A program made the translations under genes and the position numbers. From Thermococcus sp. 4557 (lineage in GTDB: Archaea > Methanobacteriota_B > Thermococci > Thermococcales > Thermococcaceae), in contig NC_015865.1 in NCBI RefSeq assembly GCF_000221185.1, positions 1,054,001 through 1,118,000 of the forward strand: DNA of 64,000 nt, given 5' to 3'. The notes beneath the pieces are model-generated. The model saw nothing but the letters and a program-made list of their open reading frames with translations, was not told where the DNA came from and ran no database searches. Shown here one piece after another: positions 44,640-58,246 of this stretch. Within the stretch, counting starts at the first letter, position 1; each line of letters begins with the position of its first letter.

Positions 44640-46553
44640 CTAAACTTTATGCACCTTTGCCCCGGCAACCCGCTCCAGGATGGGGACATAGGACAGGCCC
44701 GGGCTTATCCCCCTTCCTCTCGTGTCATAAACCGTGAGCTCAATCTCCCTCTTTTTCAGCGCCCTGGCAAGCTCCGTTATTTCCTCCTTAATCCTCCTTC
44801 CAAAGAGCGGCACGTTTGCCTTTCCGTCGGTTATTAGAAAAGCCCTCACCTTGACCGACCGGTCCTTCATCCTCTCCCTGTTCGCCAAAAGCAAAAGATT
44901 GTAGAGGGCAGAGCTTAAAGGTGTCCTCCCTCCAGTCGGAACGCTCTCTATTTTCTCAAGCACTTCCCAGTAGTTCTTAGTGGGTGGAACAAATATCTCC
45001 GCCTGGTTACCTTTCGCAACGATCATGGCCATCTTTGACTTTTTGATGTAGCCGTTCTCAACCAATTTCTCCGCTATTCCCTTCGCAATGCTTATCCTCT
45101 TCTGCACGGCCATGCTTCCGCTCGAATCCAGGAGCAAAACCCAGAGCGTTGGTGCCTTTGCCTTCCTGACCCTAACACGAACGTCCTTTAAATTAAGCTT
45201 TATTGGAGGCTTTTTTCCATTCAGAGCTGCCCAAACCAGAGAGTTGTAAAAATCAACGTCTTTAATTTTGCCGTTGGTTGGTGGGAGATACGAAACTGGA
45301 ACGCCTTTGGGGAAGTTTATTACTGTAACGCTGACGTCCCTTGAGGACCGGTATCCCGTGAATTCGCCTCCATCAAAGTTTTTGCTTTCTATCCCCGGGA
45401 TTTTAGCCTCGCTCGAGCGAAAATTCTGCTCTAAGTTTCCAGTTCCTCGACTTCGAGCGCTTCCACTTTTTTCTCCCTTCTTGTGCTCATGCTTGTGGTG
45501 GTGCTTATGATCTTGATTGTGCTCCCTATCATCTTTAGGCTTTGGGGGCCTCATCTGGGGCGGCTTTTGGAACGGCCTGTCCCTCAGGCGGTGCGGTAAA
45601 GCTAATTCCATAGCTTTTTCTAAGTCTTCCAGTGAGACCCTTCTCCTCCCGTTTAGGGCGGCTATCGCTTTGGCCGTCTTTATCGTGGCTATCTCGGCCC
45701 TGTTGGTTTTGATTCCCAGGTTAACGACCGTTTCAGCCAAAAGCTTCAGCAAATCGTCGCTTATCTCGACCTTCGGCAGAACCTCCCTCGCCTTAACGAT
45801 CCTCTCCGTGAGCTTCTTCTCTTCGCTCTCATATTTTTTGTAGAAGTTTATGGGGTCTTCATGGAACTCCTCAACGCGCTTGACTATCTCTATCCTCTCC
45901 TCCGGGTTCATAGGTGCTGAAACTTCAACGCATAAACCGAACCTGTCGAGGATCTGCGGTCTGAGCTCGCCTTCCTCTGGGTTCATGCTTCCAACCAGGA
46001 TGAACCTCGCCGGATGCCTGAAGGAGATTCCCTCCCTCTCTATAGTGTTCCATCCCATTGCTGCAGCATCTAAGAGTGAATCGGCTATGTAGTCGTCCAG
46101 GAGGTTGACCTCATCAATGTAGAGCACGTTTCTGTTTGCTTCCGCTAGTATTCCCGGCTGCAGAGCTTTTTTGCCCTCCTTTAAAAAGCGCTCCACATCA
46201 ACGGTTCCAACGAGCCTGTCTATGGTAACACTGAGGGGCAGGTCCACAACGCGCATCTTCCTCTTTGCCACTGGCAGTCCTTCTCCCCGCTCATACCTCT
46301 CATAACAGCTGTCGCACATCTCCAGCGGGTTCCCCGGATTGCAGTTGAAGGGACAGTCCGCCACAACTTCAATCTCGGGCAAGACGTTGGCCAGAGCCCT
46401 AACTAAGGTCGATTTTCCCGTTCCCTTATCTCCTTTAAGCAGGACACCACCAATCAGTGGATTAACGGCCACGGCCAGCAGTGCCAGCTTGGCCTTTTCC
46501 TGCCCGACTATTGCGGAGAACGGGAAGACTAATCGTTTTTCACGAGGCTCCAT
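44640..46553 (-). CDS. Fused ChlI-ChlD-type metal chelatase AAA/vWA subunit
   Basis: A 637-residue protein. Residues 10-330 are a ChlI-type AAA+ module with Walker [13 protein letters not shown], Walker [14 protein letters not shown] and the family four-Cys insert ([18 protein letters not shown]). Residues 330-420 are a His/Lys-rich linker ([12 protein letters not shown]), a likely metal-binding segment. The C-terminal von Willebrand A domain has an intact MIDAS motif, [10 protein letters not shown]. It would drive the CobN subunit encoded upstream with a 25-base overlap. RBS GGTGGAGG. Strong family call. Confidence 0.88.
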
Positions 46554-49500
46554 ATTCCCTCCACCTCCCTCATGTTTTCACTCCAGTGTTCGTCGTCTTC
46601 AGCCGTGTAGATTTCAATCGTCCCGCCCTGGACTTCCCCTTCACCAAGGCTTTCTTCCAGAATTCCTTCGATTTCCGAATAAACCTCCATGAGCCTTTCA
46701 ATGAGCTCCTCACTCGTCTCCCACAGGCCGCGCTCATAGGCTTCAATCAGCCTTCTCGCGATCTCCTCGATGGCGTAGGGGTTGTGTTCCTCGAACCATT
46801 TTCTCATCTCTTCATCCAGAACGTATTTCCCTGCTATCTCGTCAAAAACCCAGTCTTCAACGAGCTTTGTTGTCGCCTCCCAGCCGTATATGTGGTTGAT
46901 CTTCTTGGAGAACTCGCTCGCCCCCCGGTAGCCGTGCTTCTTCATCTCCTCAATCCACCGCTCGTTGAGGAGCTTTGCTCTGACGACCCTCTCGAGCTCA
47001 ACTTTCATGTCAACGATTTTGGTATCGCTTATGTCCCTCGTGTCCGTCTGAACCACTTCAGCGTTCTTGCCGGTTAGGGCATCAACTGCGGCCTTGAACC
47101 CTCCGTGATGGGCAAAATAGCAGCAGCAGTTCGTCGGGTCGTGCTCGTCGCTTATGTGGTTTCTGTTGATTACGTCCACCTCTTTTAGGCTCAGAACCAG
47201 CGAGTCATATGCTTCAACGCCAAAGGTATCCTTTCCGTAGGCATAGCCGCTCCACTGAATCCACACCTTAGCTAAGTCCTCGTCACTCCCCCAGCCCGAT
47301 GATTCAACCGCTAAATTCACTCCAGCCCCGTAGGCACCCGGTGGGGCCGAGAAAACCCTAAACCTTGCGAACCTCCGTGCTTCCTCAAAGCTCTTTCCGA
47401 GCTCAATGAGCTTTTTGATGTGCCCAACGTAGTGCTTTCTAGTGTAGTTCATCTCCAAGGGCTCATCCAGCGTAACGACCTTCTCTATGGCCTCGTCAAT
47501 CAGGTAGATATAGTTCGGCAGCGTGTCCCTCACGATTCCGCTTATCCTCACCAGAACGTCAATCCTCGGCCTTCCGAGCTCCTCCAGAGGTATGACTTCA
47601 AGCCCGGCAACCACGTCCCCCTTCCAAACCGGTCTGACTCCAATCAGGTACAGAATCTGGGCCATCTGCTCTCCATCCGCCTTATAACCGTCTATGCTCC
47701 AGAGAACCTGTCCGACGCTTTCCGGGTATTTTCCGTGCTTTTTCCTGTATTCCTCCAGGAGCTTCTCCGCGGTTTCAATCCCTACCTGCCACGCCGCTTT
47801 AGTCGGCAGAGTCCTTGGATCAACTGCATAGAAGTTCCTTCCCGTTGGCAGAATTTCGAACTTCCCCCTCGTTATCGCGCCTGAGGGGCCGGGTTCAACG
47901 TATTCTCCACTCAGTCCCTTCAAGAATCCTTCGTGCTCCTTTTTACACTCAATTATTTTCTCCCCAACTTCCAGGGCTTTTCTAAACGTTTCTTCAAGCT
48001 TTTCTTTCTTCTTGACTTTAAATCCAAACTTCTCAATTTCTTCCCCAATGACTTCAAAGCCTTCTCCCTTAAGCAAACGCTCCAGGCTCTTGACTGCTAT
48101 CTTGTGGAAGATTTCCAACAGTTCTCTGTTCGTGAACCCGTTTGTAGTTCCCAGGGGGTTCTTTTTCATCTCATCGTAGTCCAGGTCTACTGCCTCGGCT
48201 ATGACTCTCCTAATCGAAGGGGAAGCGTAGGAATCATAGGCCATTGCAGTGGCAACGTATTCTGCCAGCCTCTCGGGCTCCTCTGGCGGATAGCCGAAGA
48301 TGTGCAGGCCGAGGTTTATCTGGGAGCCCCTCATCAGCTCAACGTAGCGGTGGATTTCCTCTATCGTCTGCTCTTCACTTTCCGGGTCCGCTATTCTCAG
48401 CCTGTTTTCTTTGGCCTTCTCAAGAATCTGCTCGTAAATCTTCTTTCTCCTTGCCTCGTCTCCCAAGTTCTTAGCCTTTGCATACTGGGTCAGGAGGGAG
48501 TCCAAATCGTCCAGAACCTCCGCCATTCCCATCGGGGGGTAGATGTGGTCTACAAGCGCTGCGTAGCTTCTCCTCTTGGCAATGACTCCCTCCATCGGGT
48601 TGGAGACAGCATAAACGTAGAGGTGAGGAACGTCGTCCAGGCTCGCCTCAGGAACACACGAGGGGGAGAGCCCAACGCCTTTTCCGGGCCTGAATTCAAG
48701 GTAGCCGTGGGTTCCGAAGTGAACTATTACATCAGCCTTGAATTTCCGCGTTATCCACCTGTAAACGGCCCACCACTGGTGCGGTGGGACTATCCTTGGG
48801 TCATGCAAAATTCTACAAACTTTTCCGTCGCACCTGGCCCCGGCGCAGCCGAACTTGGGCTGGGGGGTTATGAAGACGTTTCCAAACCTTATCCCCGGGA
48901 CGACGAACTTTCCGTCGTGGACCATACCAACCAGCGCTTTGTCAACTTTTCCAGCCAGGACATCCTCAGGTCTTCCCCAGTCCCTGACGATTCTTTCCCT
49001 CAAGTCCTCCGGCAGCTCGTTGAACCACTCCAGATACTCCTCCAGGCCCACGAAGTCAATTGCTCCTCCGCTTTTGACGATCTCCTCAACGCTCGTCCAC
49101 CTGAACTCGCTTATAGCCTTCCTCTCCAGGATAAGCTTTATCAGCTCTTCACCGTTCTCCGGCAGGTCTTCGCCAACGTAGTAGCCTTCTTCTTTGAGCC
49201 CCTGCAGAAGTCTGACGATGCTCTCGGGAACATCCAGGCCGAAGCCAACGGCGACGTTTGCCTCAAGGCCTTTGCACGGCGGGTTTATCAAAACGATTGC
49301 TATCCTAACTTCATCCTTGGGCTTCTTCCTGAGCTCAATCCACTTCTTCACCCTTCTGGCCAGGTACCTCATGTGCTCTTCATAGGGCTCGCCCCTCTTG
49401 TAGCCCTCAATGTTTCTGGTTCCGGCTATGAAAATCGGCTCAATTGCACCCGCAACTTCCGGAATTATTACCCCATAGACCTGAGTCATGTAGTCAACGC

Positions 49501-50287
49501 CCTTCTCGCTTTTCTTCCAATCCTCAAGGGACTGGTAGTAGGACCTTATCGGGGCGAAGACCGGGACGTTGAGCCTCCCCAGGTTCTTCAGCTCGACCGT
49601 GCCGAAGGAGATTAAGCTCACCAGAGCTTCTACAACCGGCTTTCCATCCTTCATGAAGAACTCCTCAACGGCCTCGCTCTTCTCCCTCCCAAGCCCCGTC
49701 CTTGAGTCTTTTCCGTAGGTGAAGACCGGGACTACCCCAAAGCCTTCCCCCTCAAGGGCCTTGATGAGCTCTCCAATTGGTCTGAACTCCTTGTAAAGCC
49801 AGGCACTCCTCCAGAAGAGAACTCCAATGAGGGGCCTCTTCCCGTAGGCTTTCAGGTATTCGTCCAGGCTTTCAAAAAGGCCCAGTTCAGGGTGATAGAT
49901 GCCGTGCATCGGCACCTCCTGGGGAGCTTCGTAATCAATCTCCGCTCCAGCGAGGCTCGCAAGGAACCTGACCAGGTTCCTCAGGTTCTTTTCACCCCCA
50001 AGGACGTAGTAGGTCTTGGCCTTTATCAGAAACTCCTCCGGGACGTTTGCCAGGCCCTCCAGGCCGGCGCAGGCGATGACTTTAGCTCTGCTTTCTTTAA
50101 TCCTCTCCTCCACTATTTCAGGAAGCCCGTGGGCGTAGATGAAGATTACATCCGATTTCTCTATCCTCTCCAGCTCCCTCTCGCAGTTCTGGTCGGTGAG
50201 CACGAGCCCATCTATTCTCTCCTCCTCAAGTATCTCCCTCAGCAGGGGTAGGGGCCTCGCGCCGTATCCTAAGATGAAGCATATCAT
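46529..50287 (-). CDS. cobN: CobN-type cobaltochelatase / Mg-chelatase H-like subunit
   Basis: A 1252-residue large chelatase subunit that would insert a metal, by family knowledge Co or Mg, into a tetrapyrrole. [45 protein letters not shown] (read in part) and [23 protein letters not shown] are typical CobN regions. It starts by ATGA overlap with the ABC ATPase gene and has GGAGGTGA before it. In this operon with a corrinoid/metallophore-type importer, a role in cobalt-corrinoid metabolism is likely. No corrin-ring biosynthesis gene is in the window. Confidence 0.9.
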
Positions 50288-51057
50288 TGAATCACCTCCG
50301 TTCTGGGGAGTATGAGCCTGAAGCCGTCGAACTCAAGGACGCACACGGGGACGCCGTAGACATCGCGGAGTATCTCCTCCCGCAGGACTTCATGCGGCCT
50401 CCCGACGGCCCGAATCCTGCCCTCCTTGACGAGGGCTATCCTGTCGGAGTAGAGGGAGGCCAAGTTGGGGTCGTGGAGCGTCATGATGGCCGAGATGCCC
50501 TCCTTCCGTGCGAGCCTCTTGACTATCCCGAGGACTTTGACCTGATTCTTGAAGTCAAGGTGAGCCGTTGGCTCGTCGAGGAGCAGAACCCTCGGCTCCT
50601 GGACGAGGGCCCTCGCTATCAGAACCAGCTGCATCTGACCGCCGCTCAGCTGGGTGTAAGGTTTATCCTTAAAGCGCTCGAGTCCAAGAAGTCTGAGCTT
50701 TTCGAGGGCCTTCTCGTAGTGCTCATTTCCAGGGCTCTCAAAGGGGCCGAGCTGGGAAGCCAAACCCGTGACGACCACGTCCAGAACCGTGTAGGGGAAG
50801 GGCGGCGTGTGGGACTGGGGGACGTAGCCGGCCAGCTTGGCCCTCTCCCTGATGGGCAGTTCATGGAAGTCCCGCCCCTCAATGAAGACGCACCTCTCCT
50901 TTGGCTTCAGCAGGCCGTAGATGGCCTTCAGTATGGTGGTCTTCCCGCTTCCGTTAGGGCCGAGGAGCGTCACAACTTCCCCTTCCTTCACCTCGAGGGT
51001 GACCCCTTCGATGCTGAAATCACCGTAGCTGAACGACAGGCCTCTGACCTCAAGCAT
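50284..51057 (-). CDS. ABC transporter ATPase, FecE/BtuD family
   Basis: A 257-residue ATPase of metal-chelate/corrinoid importers. Walker A LGPNGSGKTT, signature QLSGGQMQL and Walker B VLLLDEPTAHLD are intact. I start it at the ATG at 51057; upstream residues overlap the permease gene. It lies between the permease and cobN with coupled starts. Confidence 0.93.
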   Translation of the reverse strand: MLEVRGLSFSYGDFSIEGVTLEVKEGEVVTLLGPNGSGKTTILKAIYGLLKPKERCVFIEGRDFHELPIRERAKLAGYVPQSHTPPFPYTVLDVVVTGLASQLGPFESPGNEHYEKALEKLRLLGLERFKDKPYTQLSGGQMQLVLIARALVQEPRVLLLDEPTAHLDFKNQVKVLGIVKRLARKEGISAIMTLHDPNLASLYSDRIALVKEGRIRAVGRPHEVLREEILRDVYGVPVCVLEFDGFRLILPRTEVIQ

Positions 51058-52096
51058 CCCATCCACCGCCCGTCTTCCTAAGCAGGTAAGCGAAGAAGGG
51101 AATTCCAAGGAGGGTCGTTATTATACCAATCGGTATCTCGTAGGTCGCCACAGACCTCGCGAGCGTATCTGCTAGGGCCATAAACGAAGCCCCGAGGGTT
51201 ATCGTCAGGGGTATCAAGGTCTTGTGGTCCGGGCCAAAGGCCATCCTCACTATGTGTGGTATCATCAGCCCGACCCACCCGATTATACCGCAGAAGGCTA
51301 TGGAAACGGCCGTTATCATGGAGACGACGACTATGAAGACAAACTTCAGCTTCTCGGTCTCGACACCCACGATTTTAGCCTCTTCACCGAAGGAGAGCAC
51401 GTTCAGCTGCCAGCGCATTGAGTATATCAAGAAACAGCCGACGAGGATCACCGGGAAGGCCACCCTAACCGAGCCCCAGTCCGAGTTGGCGAAGCTCCCC
51501 ATGAGCCAGTAGACGATGCTCGCCAGCTTGTCGTGCTCCATGAGGAACTTGAGGAGGGACGTTAAAGCTGAGAAGAAGGCGTTGACTATGATTCCAGCGA
51601 GTACGAGCGAGACTGGGGTTATCCTTCCGCCGACCCTCGCCAGCGAGGTCGTTATGAAGACCGCGAGGAGCGCGAAGGCGAACGCTGAAGGAGTCACCCC
51701 TACGCCAACGGAGAGGCCTATAGCCAAAGCCGCACCGAATGCGGCTCCGGAAGAGATGCCGAGGATGTAGCTGTTGACGAGGGGGTTCCTGAATATGGCC
51801 TGCAGGACGGCGCCCGAAATGGCAAGGGCAGAACCAACGAGCATGGCCATCAAGACGCGGGGGAGGCGTATCTCAAAGAGTATGGTCTGGTAAACGCTCG
51901 GGTAGGGGATTGTGACGGAGAGGGATACCTTCCCGAGGGTTAAGGTTTTCAAAACTTCGGAGATGATCTGAGCCCCTTTAAGGAGCACCATGCTCACTAC
52001 GGCGGAGGGGGGAATTGGATAGGTTCCTATACACAGACTTACGATGAGGGCAAGAACCGGGGAGAGCAAAAAGGAGAGGTAGAGTGCCTTCCTCAT
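51050..52096 (-). CDS. ABC transporter permease, FecCD/BtuC family
   Basis: A 348-residue permease with about ten membrane helices and the family motifs GSALAISGAVLQAIFRNPLV and GIIGWVGLMIPHIVR. The ATG at 52096 has GGGTGG at a good distance; an ATG two codons earlier overlaps the upstream stop but leaves no room for a ribosome binding site. It forms the channel of the importer with its neighbours. Confidence 0.93.
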   Translation of the reverse strand: MRKALYLSFLLSPVLALIVSLCIGTYPIPPSAVVSMVLLKGAQIISEVLKTLTLGKVSLSVTIPYPSVYQTILFEIRLPRVLMAMLVGSALAISGAVLQAIFRNPLVNSYILGISSGAAFGAALAIGLSVGVGVTPSAFAFALLAVFITTSLARVGGRITPVSLVLAGIIVNAFFSALTSLLKFLMEHDKLASIVYWLMGSFANSDWGSVRVAFPVILVGCFLIYSMRWQLNVLSFGEEAKIVGVETEKLKFVFIVVVSMITAVSIAFCGIIGWVGLMIPHIVRMAFGPDHKTLIPLTITLGASFMALADTLARSVATYEIPIGIITTLLGIPFFAYLLRKTGGGWDA

Positions 52097-52098
52097 GC

Positions 52099-53226
52099 TC
52101 ATCCACCCTGGTAGAACGGGCTGTAGAACTTCTCAATCAGCTCGTCTCTGACCGACTCCCAGCTCTGGTAGCGGTCGGGGTAGACTATGTTGGCCATCTG
52201 GTAGAGGCCGACTATTATCCTCGGGCCCCAGTCGAGGTAGCCCTTTGAACCTGCGAGGATGCCGCAGACGTGTCCTTCTTTCGCAGCCTTGATTTCCTGC
52301 CACCTTGAGTCATTTTTAATGCCGTTTACGGCGTCCTCAAGCCTGTCCTGGCTGAATGACGTCACGATTAAAACGTCCGTGTCTTTGCCCCAGTAGGCAA
52401 TTATCTTCTCGATGTCGAGCTTGGGCCACTGGGTGTCGAAGGTCATGTCGAAAGCTAAGTTGTGGGCACCGACGAGCTCCACCATGCTCGCCCACGCGCT
52501 TCCGTTGGCGTAGACAGTGACGGGGCCCGCGATGTCCTTGGGGGCGCTTATGAGGAGGGCGTTCTTCCTCTCGCTCTCTGGAATCTGGGCGGCGGTTTCC
52601 TTCACGGCGCTGAGCTTCTCCTCCATCCATCCGGCCAGTTCACCGGCCTTCTCTTCTTTATCAAAGACCTTTCCAAGGAGTTCAACGACCTCCACGTTAT
52701 CCTCGATGGTCTCAGCAGTGAGCGCTATGACGGGTATGCCGAGCTCTTCCGCCTTCTGTATCGTCTCGGCGTCGGCGTACTTGCCGCCGTACCAGTCGAT
52801 TATTATAAGGTCGGGATTCAAACCGACGACGGTCTCCCAGTTGAGGCCCTTGAAGTTGCTGCCAACGACGGTTCTGTTCTTCACATCATCCGGGAGGTAG
52901 GGGTCGTAGGGGACGTACTTGCCTATGCCGACTATCCTGTCCTGGACGCCGATGACACAGAGTATCTCCGCCCAGTAGCTGGAGAGCACTATCACCCTCC
53001 CGGGCGGCTTATCTATGGTGACGGCCCTTCCCGCGGAGTCCGTGACGGTTATCGGGTACTTGGGGGCGTTGGTTATTGTCGGGGATGAAGCCGTCTCCGT
53101 TGGGCTGGAGGAGGACGCGGGAGTAGTCGTGGCGGTCTTGCCGCTTATACAGCCACTCGCCACGACGGTGAGGAGCAAGACGCCGACCAAAAGCACTGAA
53201 AACACCTTTCTGCGGAAGGTTATCAT
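52099..53226 (-). CDS. Substrate-binding lipoprotein of metal-chelate/corrinoid importer
   Basis: A 375-residue periplasmic-type binding protein. The N-terminus has a hydrophobic signal and lipobox VVASGCISG, then a Thr/Ser/Pro linker to residue 55 and a helical-backbone metal-receptor domain (TDSAGRAVTIDKPPGRVIVLSS, NPDLIIIDW). The start at 53226 follows GGTGGTGAG. First gene of the five-gene operon ending in the chelatase subunits, which suggests a cobalt-corrinoid ligand; iron or other metal chelates remain possible. Confidence 0.9.
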   Translation of the reverse strand: MITFRRKVFSVLLVGVLLLTVVASGCISGKTATTTPASSSSPTETASSPTITNAPKYPITVTDSAGRAVTIDKPPGRVIVLSSYWAEILCVIGVQDRIVGIGKYVPYDPYLPDDVKNRTVVGSNFKGLNWETVVGLNPDLIIIDWYGGKYADAETIQKAEELGIPVIALTAETIEDNVEVVELLGKVFDKEEKAGELAGWMEEKLSAVKETAAQIPESERKNALLISAPKDIAGPVTVYANGSAWASMVELVGAHNLAFDMTFDTQWPKLDIEKIIAYWGKDTDVLIVTSFSQDRLEDAVNGIKNDSRWQEIKAAKEGHVCGILAGSKGYLDWGPRIIVGLYQMANIVYPDRYQSWESVRDELIEKFYSPFYQGG

Positions 53227-53243
53227 GCTCACCACCGCTGTGC

Positions 53244-53263
53244 TACTAATTTCCAATTTAGTA
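53244..53263. promoter_or_regulatory. Operator-like palindrome before the importer-chelatase operon
   Basis: TACTAATTTCCAATTTAGTA is a 20-bp hyphenated palindrome, 16 of 20 positions symmetric, lying 18 bases before the ATG and downstream of A/T-rich TATA candidates (53280-53310). Its position suits a repressor responding to metal or corrinoid status. Confidence 0.45.
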
Positions 53264-53356
53264 ATACAAAATCCGAGAGATATAGCTAACTTTTAACACT
53301 TTTTAAAACAACAGGTTCCCAACTTATGGTTTTTGATAACACCAAAACAAAAATAA

Positions 53357-54088: not shown

Positions 54089-57000
54089 TCAAGAGGAGTA
54101 GTGCCTCCTCGTCCAGAACTCCTTCTTCCTGAAGGGGTTCCAGTTCTTGAGAGGTCTGTAGTAGCCGATTATCCTGCTCCATACCTCGACGTTCTCGCTT
54201 CCACAGCGCGGGCAGTGGGTGTGCAGACCAGTTGTTGAGTAGCCGCAGGCGTTGCAGACGGTAACCGCTGGAGTGTAGCTCCAGTAGACGAGCTGGGTTC
54301 TCATGAGCCTTTTCGTGAGTTTTGCAAGGGCCTCAGGGTCCGGCTCCTCCCCGAGGAATATGTGCATCATAACCCCACCGGTGAAGCTCCTCTGGACTTT
54401 CTCCTCCACCCGTATCCTGTCGGCCAGTTCAAGGGAACCGTAGTAGGGCGCCACGCTGGTCGAGTAAATAGGGTTCTCCGGGTCGCTGAGGTACTCCCTA
54501 AGCTCCGGAAACTCGTGCAGGTCTTTTATAGCGAGCTTCGCCGCAGCACTCTCACCGGGAACCTCCTCGACGTTCCAGGGCGTCCCGCTCTCGCGCATCC
54601 ACTCCCTCGCCTTTGCCGTCGCGAACTCCACCATCTCCTTCATCAGCTCCGCCGCTTTCATCCAGTCCTTTCTCGTTCCCTCCTCCCAGAGCTCCGGCTC
54701 GTTGAGGTAAATCGCGGCCGCCTCAGGAAGGCCGAGGATTCCGACGGTGTTGAAGTGACTGCTCGGAAACTCCTGAAGGTAGAGGTGAATCATGCTGTAC
54801 ATGTGCCGGTAAGCTGTGATAAGCCTCACGTAGCGCTCCCTGAACCAGTCCGTTGTCCTCCTCACGACTTCAAGAATCCTCTCGTACTCCTCCCAGAACC
54901 TATTGTCGTCGCCGTTCGCCTTGAGGGCGAGCCTTGGCAGGTTCACGGTTGTAACGTTAACCGAGCCGGTGACGTCAGGCATCGCCCAGAGTCCGCCGAA
55001 ACGTCCCCTCTCAAGCCTTTCCAGCGCTTCCTCCTCGGCGCTTTTCCCGGAGACGCCGAAGGCGAACGCCATCTCAGTCTTGTCGATGGCAATTCTGCAG
55101 CAGTTGTGAGTAACAACTCCGGAGCTGTGGGTGAAGTAGTGGATACCCTCAACCTCCACATCGTAAAAGGTTCCGTTAACTTCTATCTCCTCCACCTCTA
55201 CAACCGTGACCCACGCGAGGTTTCCGTCCACACGATGCTTTACTGCGTCACTTGGGCGTCCTATCTCTTCTCCCCAGCTTCCTGGGAAGTAAACAACAAC
55301 TGAACCATCACGGTTCTCCCTGAAGTAGGCAGAGCCCCTGGTTATTGCTGCAAGTGTCAGAACGTCCTCAGCAAGCTCCCTGTTTTTTATGTGGAGCTCC
55401 CAAGCGCCCTTTCTCCAGTAACCGTCGCTGTGCAAGAGGCCCTTCAGGAAGGCCCTTCTCACCCCTGCCGGAGCATGCCAGATTACTCCAGGAATCCTCT
55501 TCTCGTGACTTAACCCGCTTACACCTTCGTCATAGAGCGCCCTAGCAAGGTAGGCATCGTATATTATCACGTACGTGAGACTCTCCCAGCGGGGGTCTCT
55601 TTTTACTTTGGGTTCCTTCCCAAGGACATTTATCGAGAACTGCACGAGAAATTCCTTCACGTCCTTTTCCTCACTGTTTATAGAGAACTGGATTCCGCTG
55701 AGGTAATATCCTCCTCTGTGCTTCTCTTCGCGAGTTCTTCTGGCCATGTTGGAGCTTCTTATAAACGTTCCGTCGCCGTAGAACAGGCCGAGGAAGTACC
55801 CAAAGTCATCATCGACATCAATTTCACGTCCATCTTCAAGCTGAAGTTTTGCCTTTTCCCCTTCAATCTCGGTCAAGACTACTGGTATGCGATATGCATA
55901 GCCGCTGAGAGAACGCTTAGCTAACTCTTCAGCCCTCATGAGTCTGACACTGTTATCATACTTAACCAATACGGGAATTGGATGGTCTGGGGATACCACA
56001 AAGCTTCTCCCATCAGAAAGACGCACTCTGATGGCTTTTCCATACTCTTTTTTCAGGAACCGTTTAACAGGTTTCCATTTAACTTTCCCACCATCCAGGT
56101 CAACGGCGAGAACCTCCACGGCATCCCTCACTCCGTACCATTCTGCTCCATCGTCTTCTCTGGACTCCAACTCACCGGCAAAGCGCTCGAAAAGCTCCTT
56201 TATGGGTGCAACTCCAACACCGCCGTCAGCACGGTAGAGAACCTTCTCGTTCTCATACAGACACATCGCGTAGCTCGCGTCCGGGTCTACAACGTTCGTG
56301 TTCAGCCAGTAGAAGCTCCCGCGCTTCGACGCCGTCCCAAAGACCGCCTCAAAGACTTCCGGGTCATCCCAGAGCATCTTGGCTGTGACCATCAGCGTCG
56401 GAATCGGGAATGTGAAGGGCTGGCCGAGCGCGTCCCCCTCGCGGAGGACCTCCGTTAGGGCTACGAAGAACTCCTTGGCTTCCTTCTCGTACTCACCGAG
56501 CGGTTCGACCTTCTCGCCCGCGTAAACCGCGTGGTCGCCATCGAGCATCTTCTTGGGAGCGTCGAGCGTTACGGTGAAGTTGGTGAAGGGCGTATTCCCA
56601 GTTATGAACACAGAGCCATTTCTCATTGCTATAACTGTCTCATTTTCCGTATTAACAGACCAAATTACTCCTGAATAATCGACTTCTCTTATTTCTTGGA
56701 TGTACTCGTGCCCTGTTTTTGTTAGGGTTATTATGTACTGGGCTTTCTTAGAGGGAAGATTTGGTATTCTAACTGAAATCGAAACATTGTATCCTGCAAG
56801 AATGGCAACTGCAACTATTGCATCTTTTATTTCCTTATCTGTCGTTGTTATTCTGACTCTGTTCTCTCTCTTTTCAGTGTATCCATCTCCCTTAACGTAT
56901 GTCTCAATGAAAACCTTGGCCTGCTCCCTGCTCAGCTGATAGAGCCATAGAGGAGGCTTTTTCTCGGTTATTCCCAGCTTCTCCATGACTATCCTCGAGG

Positions 57001-58060
57001 ATTTAGAATTCAAGCGAATTGCCTTTGCGCTTCCCCAGCCAGGATCATCTCTTATAGTATACTCAAGCCCCAGCCTTGACAAAATATCTAGTATTTCTTG
57101 GTATTCCTTTGGGTGAGACTCAGGAGATTGCACTATAGTTATTCGGGCTGTTCCCTTGGATTTCTTTTCGATAGAACCTTCAGAAAGTATCCATGCAAGG
57201 AGTTTTATCCATGTCTCATCTATCTCAACCCCATCACTCTCTAGCTCGGTAACGGCAGGTGTGGGAATAGGAACTGGAGATTTGAATTGTACGACCTCCT
57301 CAATTGGAGTAAGCGTATACCTGTCCGAGTTAAAGACTTTTCTTACAACTCTATGCCTTGGGGAAATTAACTGGTCCTGTGTTCTGTTCCGTAGGTTGTA
57401 CATCTTACCCGAATAGTGGGATATGTGAACATGCCTGACAACCTTTGGTTCTATTTTTCTGGTCTCAACGTTGAATGTGTATATGACATCACCAACATTT
57501 ATTTCATTATACCGTTTCCATCCATAAGGGGTTAGTATGACAGTATCCTCAGACAAACATTGCATCCCCACCCTGCTCGGGTAGTTGAGGTTGTAAACCA
57601 AGCGCTGAATCTGCTGTCTGATTTTGCGCCTGTTCAGGCTTTCTTTCCTGATGAAGGACCCGGCGTACCACTCGACCGAGCTCAAAGCCTGGGCGCCGCT
57701 GAAGTAGTGCTGCATCGTTATGAGGTAGTTCGCTATGTGGTCGACGTAGGTGTCGAAGTGCCTAGCCGGTCTTGAGACTATCGTGGGCGTCTTAAGGCCC
57801 TTTTCAAGGAGCCTCGCAGTGCTGTGGCCGGTGCAGTAGGGGATGTAGAGGCTGTATGGTAGCTTGTGGATGTAGATGTCCCCTGAGAAGTGCGCCTCTC
57901 GGCCTTCCTTCGGGACGAGCGAGATGCCCGCCGTTAAAGCCTCCTCCATCACGTAGGCGAAGAATCCGGTCGGTCCGGGGTAGCGGTTTGCGTTCTCCAG
58001 AACGTCCAGACTGCTCCAGCCCGCGTACTCCTGAATGATGTCACGCTTTACGGTCTCCAT
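54089..58060 (-). CDS. nrdD: Anaerobic ribonucleoside-triphosphate reductase with two inteins
   Basis: A 1323-residue precursor; without inteins the enzyme is 614 residues, usual for archaeal class III reductase. It reduces NTPs to dNTPs with a glycyl radical made by NrdG. I start it at the ATG at 58060, preceded by AAGGTGAG; 34 upstream in-frame residues read through the promoter. The C-terminal zinc site has two CxxC pairs (VCNACGY, HCPRCGS) followed by the radical glycine in SRIIGYYRPL. Inteins interrupt conserved sites after VGMQ and after SYAM. All key residues are present after splicing. Confidence 0.95.
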   Translation of the reverse strand: METVKRDIIQEYAGWSSLDVLENANRYPGPTGFFAYVMEEALTAGISLVPKEGREAHFSGDIYIHKLPYSLYIPYCTGHSTARLLEKGLKTPTIVSRPARHFDTYVDHIANYLITMQHYFSGAQALSSVEWYAGSFIRKESLNRRKIRQQIQRLVYNLNYPSRVGMQCLSEDTVILTPYGWKRYNEINVGDVIYTFNVETRKIEPKVVRHVHISHYSGKMYNLRNRTQDQLISPRHRVVRKVFNSDRYTLTPIEEVVQFKSPVPIPTPAVTELESDGVEIDETWIKLLAWILSEGSIEKKSKGTARITIVQSPESHPKEYQEILDILSRLGLEYTIRDDPGWGSAKAIRLNSKSSRIVMEKLGITEKKPPLWLYQLSREQAKVFIETYVKGDGYTEKRENRVRITTTDKEIKDAIVAVAILAGYNVSISVRIPNLPSKKAQYIITLTKTGHEYIQEIREVDYSGVIWSVNTENETVIAMRNGSVFITGNTPFTNFTVTLDAPKKMLDGDHAVYAGEKVEPLGEYEKEAKEFFVALTEVLREGDALGQPFTFPIPTLMVTAKMLWDDPEVFEAVFGTASKRGSFYWLNTNVVDPDASYAMCLYENEKVLYRADGGVGVAPIKELFERFAGELESREDDGAEWYGVRDAVEVLAVDLDGGKVKWKPVKRFLKKEYGKAIRVRLSDGRSFVVSPDHPIPVLVKYDNSVRLMRAEELAKRSLSGYAYRIPVVLTEIEGEKAKLQLEDGREIDVDDDFGYFLGLFYGDGTFIRSSNMARRTREEKHRGGYYLSGIQFSINSEEKDVKEFLVQFSINVLGKEPKVKRDPRWESLTYVIIYDAYLARALYDEGVSGLSHEKRIPGVIWHAPAGVRRAFLKGLLHSDGYWRKGAWELHIKNRELAEDVLTLAAITRGSAYFRENRDGSVVVYFPGSWGEEIGRPSDAVKHRVDGNLAWVTVVEVEEIEVNGTFYDVEVEGIHYFTHSSGVVTHNCCRIAIDKTEMAFAFGVSGKSAEEEALERLERGRFGGLWAMPDVTGSVNVTTVNLPRLALKANGDDNRFWEEYERILEVVRRTTDWFRERYVRLITAYRHMYSMIHLYLQEFPSSHFNTVGILGLPEAAAIYLNEPELWEEGTRKDWMKAAELMKEMVEFATAKAREWMRESGTPWNVEEVPGESAAAKLAIKDLHEFPELREYLSDPENPIYSTSVAPYYGSLELADRIRVEEKVQRSFTGGVMMHIFLGEEPDPEALAKLTKRLMRTQLVYWSYTPAVTVCNACGYSTTGLHTHCPRCGSENVEVWSRIIGYYRPLKNWNPFRKKEFWTRRHYSS
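55103..56263 (-). other. Intein 2 of NrdD (387 aa, LAGLIDADG)
   Basis: Precursor residues 600-986. It starts with Cys (CLYENEKVL) and ends VVTHN before the extein Cys of CCRIAID, giving fully canonical splice residues. Two LAGLIDADG-type motifs, YFLGLFYGDGTF and FLKGLLHSDGYW, keep their acidic residues, so the homing endonuclease may be active. Block-B-like FVVSPDHPIPV follows the N-terminal block. Inserted directly before the conserved double Cys of the active-site region. Confidence 0.93.
56594..57559 (-). other. Intein 1 of NrdD (322 aa, LAGLIDADG)
   Basis: Precursor residues 168-489. It begins CLSEDTVILTPYGWKRYNEI, a classical N-terminal splice block, and ends FITGN before extein Thr (TPFTNFT). 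The penultimate residue is Gly and not the usual His, a known but uncommon variant. The motifs LLAWILSEGS and FIETYVKGDGYT are the two LAGLIDADG blocks. Base composition is visibly more A/T-rich than that of the extein, as expected for a laterally acquired element. Confidence 0.92.
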
Positions 58061-58070
58061 AGCCCTCACC

Positions 58071-58113
58071 TTGGATAATTTATCCAACAACTGAGACGGC
58101 GGCGGGGGATATA
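58071..58113 (-). promoter_or_regulatory. nrdD promoter with perfect 17-bp palindrome
   Basis: TTGGATAATTTATCCAA (58071-58087) is a perfect palindrome with a one-base centre. The - strand TATA GCATTATATCC (58113-58103) lies about 25 bases upstream, so the palindrome covers the expected transcription start, just before the ribosome binding site. This is a classical repressor position. Confidence 0.55.
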
Positions 58114-58246
58114 ATGCTTCCCCTTGAACCACCGGTCGTTTGTGCAACATCAAGGCGAACAATTGGGCCTCTGGACGAGATAGACAAATTATTCATGAAC
58201 ACATGACCACCACACTGACGACAAACACCACACCCATGATAAATAG

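Follow-up and report, generated by a model that had tools for sequence, protein, structure and literature searches.

The 64,000-nucleotide stretch of the genome of Thermococcus sp. 4557 that was analysed here (contig NC_015865.1, positions 1,054,001 to 1,118,000; hereafter the window, whose numbering is used for all positions) contains five genes in one row on the minus strand, from 53226 to 44640, which encode BtuF-, BtuC-, BtuD-, CobN- and ChlI-ChlD-like proteins. The BtuF and BtuC genes overlap by 4 nucleotides, as do the BtuD and CobN genes, and the CobN and ChlID genes overlap by 25, so that the row can be considered a single operon. A first-pass annotation of this DNA had described a complete importer and both chelatase subunits in one operon, and all five genes are indeed present, in order, overlapping and on one strand. 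The BtuF-like substrate-binding protein (52099..53226; PF01497) is probably a membrane-anchored lipoprotein; many relatives have a tandem version of it, with two domains and about 710 amino acids. Its start was placed at ATG 53226 and not at TTG 53256, the choice of the open reading frame (ORF) finder, because the latter falls within an operator-like palindrome. The next genes encode a BtuC-like permease (51050..52102; PF01032 FecCD, 292 bits) and a BtuD-like ATP-binding cassette ATPase (50284..51057), recognized by profile matches, with an ORF that opens at TTG 51108 and a likelier start at ATG 51057. They are followed by a 1252-amino-acid protein of the CobN/ChlH/HmuS superfamily (46529..50287) with a full-length match to PF02514 (1199 bits, profile positions 2 to 1088 of 1090), and by a ChlI-ChlD fusion of 637 amino acids (44640..46553), in which an AAA motor and a VWA domain are joined by a linker rich in histidine and lysine. 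The fusion shows the domains AAA_lid_2, Mg_chelatase and VWA_2, and scores 649 bits against TIGR02442, under the cut-off of 779. The genome (G000 in our sample) is a single contig of 2.01 Mb with one CobN-family gene. Recent horizontal transfer was considered as an origin of the operon; base composition gives no clear sign of it (54.1% G+C in the operon, 55.1% in the window).

A conserved promoter region separates the operon from the upstream nrdG gene, and at its end, between this region and the BtuF-like start, lies a palindrome, GTRYTACTAA-N8-TTAGTARYAC (53240..53267, not assigned to a strand), which may function as an operator. It matches without mismatch, and 100 shuffles of the window gave no match. 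With up to three mismatches allowed it is the single site in the genome; its weight lies in the exact quality of the palindrome, because a reversed control pattern gave three matches at that tolerance. A looser form of the exact palindrome was found in 19 of the 186 loci examined, and every one of these is this operon. The idea of a regulon built on a shared operator was dropped, given the single site, the three control matches and the lack of a site in the corrinoid salvage cluster described below.

The CobN-like protein carries a signature of seven cysteines. Its relatives were compared in an alignment of 97 superfamily rows, five of which are second copies from the same loci and from which the CobN of locus L175 is missing owing to the gene finder. 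Reference rows were CobN proteins encoded in cob/cbi operons (Azotobacter, Deinococcus, Halorussus) and the BchH of a Sulfitobacter bch cluster. Three main types can be distinguished at the place of the second active-site histidine of HmuS, His-1209. True CobN proteins (11 rows) have an Asp motif (SDD, SND, SSD or GDD) opposite the histidine of the HxGxHG motif. Nine rows, eight of them distinct, have LDHxxEFxGG as in HmuS. The remaining type has a cysteine pair or triad: it comprises 70 rows including the window protein, 66 of them distinct, and the triad is CCC in 67. In the window protein it is found at 1054-1056, where HmuS has His-1209 and CobN its Asp. The other four cysteines, C338 and C481-x4-C486-x4-C491, form a quartet that is complete in 69 of the 70 triad rows, with three of the four kept in the remaining row, and there is no cysteine at these positions in any of the 25 rows of the CobN, LDH, DDC and BchH types. 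Two odd rows keep the quartet with another triad, L157_4 (CSC) and L167_3 (SSF). In an alignment-free check of the raw sequences, 68 rows contain both motifs and 24 contain neither. Residue frequencies were taken from 45 of the 70 triad rows, the window protein standing for all thermococcal copies.

The first-pass annotation had called the protein CobN, a name that does not hold. It falls under the NCBIfam cut-offs for CobN (1285 bits against NF004646, which requires 1468; 805 against TIGR02257, which requires 822) as well as those of NF004643, NF004644, NF004645 and NF008973, and also under that for BchH (TIGR02025, 803 versus 829 bits). A careful tree was built from 33 of the 97 rows, with the trait columns removed and without BchH and the Acetobacterium row L167_3. 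In this tree, the triad type forms one mostly archaeal clade (98/96), outside the CobN clade (100/100), and the LDH type forms a clade of its own (100/100). Judged from its sequence, the protein is therefore not a cobaltochelatase by descent, and the description as a class I (de)chelatase with seven cysteines and a link to import suits it better. The cobaltochelatase label that proteins of this archaeal clade have been given by homology is probably wrong. A library search, which left most subscription papers outside its scope, found no literature description of the seven-cysteine type. The signature provides a marker by which the type can be separated from CobN, ChlH and HmuS. It also points to the residues suited for mutagenesis, and leads one to expect iron-sulfur or metal-thiolate spectra in the visible range.

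A structure model of residues 70-1252 (predicted local distance difference test score, pLDDT, 89.6; predicted template-modelling score, pTM, 0.91) has 11 strong structural matches, with Z 37-42, all of which are chains of CobN, ChlH or HmuS; the next row has Z 7.1. In the domain with the catalytic histidine, C338 follows strand 329-333, the loop with C481-C491 follows strand 471-475 and H527 follows strand 520-524, while the triad caps the helix after 1039-1044. For HmuS, neighbouring parallel strands are described in this domain, and these two loops are described as surrounding the active site (PMC12583661). Taken together, the strand positions and this description place the quartet likely at the edge of the active site in the model.

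The metabolism of the host bears directly on the role of the operon. In a sample of 94 Thermococcaceae genomes, 74 of which are at least 90% complete, CbiC and HemB were both found in none, the Thermococcus sp. 4557 genome included; among 14 control genomes the same searches were positive in 7 and 11, respectively. Corrin ring synthesis is thus lacking, as the first-pass annotation had supposed, and the full corrin pathway elsewhere in the genome that it had named as the finding most damaging to its view was looked for, with neither CbiC nor HemB turning up. The survey of cbi/cob genes and B12-dependent enzymes that it had proposed brought to light salvage genes, the B12-dependent ribonucleotide reductase NrdJ and methylmalonyl-CoA mutase in this genome. 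NrdJ is encoded in all 74 genomes that are at least 90% complete and the mutase in 71 of them. For corrinoid salvage, the Thermococcus sp. 4557 genome has CbiZ and a cluster with CobS, CobZ and CbiB above the NCBIfam cut-offs, in which CobY-like and CobD-like genes match under theirs. Over the 94 genomes, CbiB occurs in 75, CobS in 76 and CbiZ in 76. These counts agree with an earlier survey, in which four of four Thermococcales were reported as B12 users and none as makers (PMC2667541). Two genomes, G075 (98% complete) and G079 (95%), keep the operon, NrdJ and the mutase and lack CbiB, CobS and CbiZ, which argues against a role of the operon solely in feeding lower-loop assembly.

The CobN-like protein is found in 27 of the 94 genomes, distributed over all 6 genera. 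The order BtuF-BtuC-BtuD-CobN-ChlID is complete in 19 of the 26 genomes other than that of the window; in five it is cut by contig ends, and two have no importer, namely G069, where CobN is truncated, and G072, which has a second CobN type only and a split ChlID. Close orthologues of the BtuC-like permease (at least 68% identity) occur in 24 of the 94 genomes and the remaining BtuC matches reach at most 52%. Of these 24 genomes, 23 have CobN; in the remaining one, G091, just 67 bases of contig follow the permease gene. Importer and chelatase therefore appear to have been gained and lost jointly. Some FecCD permease is present in all 74 good genomes, with four such permeases in Thermococcus sp. 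4557, and the CobN-type one in 24 only, so that the CobN-linked importer is not supported as the general importer of B12. A second complete FecBCD-type set of binding protein, permease and ATPase is located at C1:1536493-1539433 in Thermococcus sp. 4557 (L187 6494-9434). This set, near C1:1537000, is a candidate for the general importer of corrinoids or for an importer of another chelate, and the two genes after it look FmdE-like and MobA-like by eye.

A Gate-type membrane protein of about 314 amino acids is encoded between the BtuD and CobN genes in 13 of the 27 CobN-bearing genomes, and G008 has a remnant of this gene. Its match to the Gate domain is weak (PF07670, 27 bits, under the cut-off of 29.6). 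For its model (pLDDT 87.6), the best VIA-align rows are elevator transporters of the CNT and INDY types (5l2b, Z 11.3, 4.8 A over 277 residues), a Z near the chance level for helical proteins and therefore suggestive, not proof. A likeness to FeoB was also considered: Foldseek gave no match at E <=0.001, and FeoB was not among the VIA-align rows shown. Further variation is seen in G040 and G082, where a second CobN, 34% identical to the first, directly follows it. The reduced operon of G072 (L062 5848-11455) has only an HmuS-like CobN of the LDH type and a ChlID in two ORFs, without importer, and still has the operator-like palindrome upstream. In one operon only (G084, L047 5983-6798), a methyltransferase-like gene is inserted between BtuD and the Gate-type gene.

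Beyond the Thermococcales, a scan of genome contigs for CobN-like loci yielded 77 loci, and the triad type is present in 58 loci outside this order, from archaea and some bacteria. An importer component lies within five genes in 43 of these 58, ChlID in 32 and a Gate-type gene in 12; for true CobN-type loci of the same scan, an importer is nearby in 2 of 7. The label LDH is inflated in this neighbourhood tally by a loose pattern on split genes, and the LDH counts given here are from aligned rows only. The importer is mostly of the BtuFCD type, and at least eight loci, including those of Methanosarcina and the close relative L106, have an energy-coupling factor system with a double ATPase and CbiQ. 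Gate-type homologues occur in CobN loci of Archaeoglobi, Methanodesulfokora, Hadesarchaea, Alkanophagales and others.

Several side observations were made on these loci. In several Methanothrix loci at least four binding-protein genes surround CobN, and in L116, L118, L119 and L143 (Methanothrix and relatives) arrays of BtuF-like genes stand around the triad-type CobN, as if many ligands feed one chelatase. CobN is encoded as two adjacent ORFs (about 720-870 and 490-515 amino acids) in L139, L141, L142, L144, L149, L160, L165 and L166, from Archaeoglobaceae, Methanodesulfokora, Hadesarchaea and some Thermoproteota; in such split genes the first, N-terminal ORF holds the quartet and the second holds the triad, which reads CCG in L160. 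In Acetobacterium fimetarium (L167, 8482-12411 and the neighbouring ORF), two adjacent CobN-like proteins occur together with ChlI and ChlD; one is of the CobN type, and the other is the row mentioned above with the quartet and SSF in place of the triad.

On the basis of these data it is possible to speculate about function. The first-pass annotation had proposed metal insertion into, or exchange on, an imported tetrapyrrole. Action on an imported tetrapyrrole stands as the best reading, because there is no corrin synthesis, the chelatase comes together with an importer and this pairing recurs across archaea. We tentatively favour, with a probability somewhat short of even, an accessory salvage operon, in which ChlID would drive the removal or exchange of the metal on a metallo-tetrapyrrole brought in by the importer (probably a corrinoid), perhaps with the help of an iron-sulfur cluster. 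The gene content suggests that the BtuFCD-like importer takes up the metal-bearing tetrapyrrole, and a corrinoid is favoured since these cells are shown here to need no tetrapyrrole other than cobamides. The CobN-like subunit, with its fold and its HFGTHG motif, would bind the ring in its central cavity, and by analogy to Mg-chelatase and CobNST, the ChlI-ChlD motor would power an ATP-driven conformational change at the metal. The net direction would most likely be removal or exchange rather than a first insertion. It could be imagined that the cysteine triad, facing the catalytic His527, takes the metal, and that the quartet holds an iron-sulfur cluster (or zinc), which would supply electrons or structure. 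Where present, the elevator-like Gate-type protein might carry the product, either the metal or the bare ring, across the membrane. A more far-reaching version can also be formulated, which is possible but doubtful: a pan-archaeal, import-coupled, ATP-driven and redox-active class I (de)chelatase, with its own iron-sulfur cluster (C338, C481, C486, C491) by the active site and, opposite the catalytic histidine, three cysteines as a metal trap. It would reductively strip or swap the metal of tetrapyrroles after their import, which would be cobalt in the case of corrinoids and possibly also nickel or iron in that of F430 or heme. If true, this would be the first known case of an enzyme that extracts the metal from an intact corrin. 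The removal of cobalt or nickel from intact rings would constitute new chemistry, and a new step in the sharing of metals and B12 among anaerobes. Since the Thermococcales make no tetrapyrrole and yet keep a chelatase beside an importer, biosynthesis can be excluded as its role, which makes them a clean test case.

Several points weigh against the salvage operon in the form that we favour. Cobalt is very hard to remove from a corrin, and in other systems the role known for the ATP-driven ChlID is to insert a metal. In a quick tree of 77 of the 97 rows, with long branches and weak deep forks and with the variants CCH, CCY and CCS counted under other labels, the triad type is not united (6 changes; deepest forks supported at 46). 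The C481-C491 loop is the least certain part of its region of the model (block pLDDT 64-70). No importer lies within five genes in 15 of the 58 triad loci, several of which are on short contigs. The operator-like palindrome was not found in the salvage cluster of Thermococcus sp. 4557, so that no link to a B12 regulon is shown. HmuS is described as NADH dependent, with no ATPase subunit mentioned (PMC12583661). In Methanosarcina barkeri, CobN-like BtuS proteins are reported to increase on Fe(II)/cysteine and on pyrite (PMC10846266); this response would fit iron or a porphyrin as well as a corrinoid.

Late insertion of cobalt for salvage is one alternative, and we regard it as rather unlikely. 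Metal-free or de-metallated corrinoids would be imported, CobN-ChlID would add cobalt, and the product would feed the CbiZ/CbiB/CobS pathway. The overall fold shared with the H subunits of cobaltochelatase and Mg-chelatase, the intact ChlID partner and the salvage genes of Thermococcus sp. 4557 are consistent with such a role, as is the speculation that haloarchaeal CobN serves salvage (PMC8305020). However, the protein does not belong to the CobN clade and carries Cys at the place of Asp, the enzymes that the operon would feed are missing from G075 and G079, which nevertheless keep it, and 67 of the 94 genomes do without CobN though NrdJ is general. Metal-free corrinoids are not known to occur commonly outside cells.

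The operon might instead serve iron or nickel scavenging, with imported heme, another metalloporphyrin or F430 as a mere source of metal, as HmuS does with heme (PMC12583661). The M. barkeri CobN-like proteins that shift with the iron and sulfur source (PMC10846266) would fit this, as would a Gate-domain membrane protein that could pass the metal. In six of eight distinct cases, a CobN-like protein with the HmuS-like LDHxxEF is the second such protein in the same locus. The window protein, however, has neither LDHxxEF nor the neck His-254 of HmuS, no iron or nickel gene link was found in the operon, and it is unproven that Thermococcales are supplied with heme or F430; this role thus seems unlikely. 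It is quite improbable that the substrate is no tetrapyrrole at all, the importer carrying another metal chelate from which a recruited CobN fold strips the metal. FecCD importers also carry siderophores, with a substrate that is described as unreadable from sequence (PMC2667541), and the seven cysteines were not found in the other superfamily types aligned, yet the HFGTHG motif of the central cavity is kept and each strong structural match is a tetrapyrrole enzyme, with the wide gap in Z noted above.

Comparison with known systems puts the salvage reading in context. BtuS was proposed in 2003 as a third CobN type for metalloporphyrin salvage (Rodionov et al., as cited in PMC6460266), and M. 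barkeri is reported to have two copies (PMC6460266, PMC10846266). The window protein resembles BtuS as a CobN-related protein outside corrin synthesis that is encoded with a B12-type importer, a likeness of gene context. In Bacteroides fragilis, BtuS1/2 act with FeoAB in heme-iron use (PMC6460266); the Bacteroides proteins are periplasmic, membrane anchored and associated with FeoAB, whereas the window protein has BtuFCD and ChlID as partners, and seven cysteines. HmuS is a proven heme dechelatase, which removes iron from heme, and its His-1209 faces the essential histidine of HFGTHG, His-538 (PMC12583661). With HmuS (PDB 9d26, 9p4s) the window protein shares the fold (Z 37.0, 3.7 A over 1062 residues), the HFGTHG motif with its essential histidine, here H527, and presumably action on an imported tetrapyrrole. 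It differs in having the cysteine triad in place of LSLDHxxEFMGG, which comprises His-1209 and Glu-1212, in the residues at the head and neck heme ligands Met-79 and His-254, which in one phmmer alignment correspond to His53 and Leu225, and in the presence of ChlID in its operon. CobN of CobNST (PDB 7c6o, 9uk9) is close in structure (7c6o: Z 41.8, 2.1 A over 986 residues), shares the full-length PF02514 match and has an AAA/VWA partner as well, but belongs to a separate clade, and the window protein differs from it in its scores under the NCBIfam cut-offs, in Cys for the Asp motif and in a host genome without corrin synthesis. ChlH/BchH (PDB 6ytn, 4zhj) is likewise similar (Z 42.0, 2.7 A over 980 residues) and works with ChlI and ChlD; Sulfitobacter BchH has a DH motif versus the triad of the window protein, which is also under the BchH cut-off, and since HemB is absent from the 94 genomes no chlorophyll pathway is expected. 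A Dehalobacter operon with FepBCD/BtuCDE, CbiZ, CobN and chelatase subunits is reported to rise at low corrinoid (PMC4285132), which would favour a corrinoid as substrate. The CobN-like proteins of Methanothermobacter were once guessed to be nickel chelatases (PMC3087415).

Two further suggestions of the first-pass annotation concerned the linker and the neighbouring genes. It had supposed that the His/Lys-rich linker of the ChlI-ChlD fusion brings the metal. Among the ChlIDs listed, each of the 23 from Thermococcales has 5-8 histidines in the linker, one from Archaeoglobi has 7 and the other 39 have 0-6. It is thus a local trait, strong only in the Thermococcales and that one protein, and therefore unlikely to be a shared metal donor; a common metal donor was set aside as a weak idea, the pattern not being general among the ChlIDs listed. 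The genes nrdDG do lie directly upstream of the operon in the window, as had been stated, and next to it in 8 of the 26 other CobN-bearing genomes. As a pointer to B12 need they are not informative, since NrdJ and methylmalonyl-CoA mutase are also encoded, and a B12-sparing switch was rejected in view of this adjacency and of the presence of NrdJ in each of the 74 good genomes, whether they have CobN or not. The nrdD gene itself (54089-58162, minus strand) contains intein splicing and LAGLIDADG homing-endonuclease domains, apparently of two inteins, and its product has 1357 amino acids, compared with about 620-650 in relatives.

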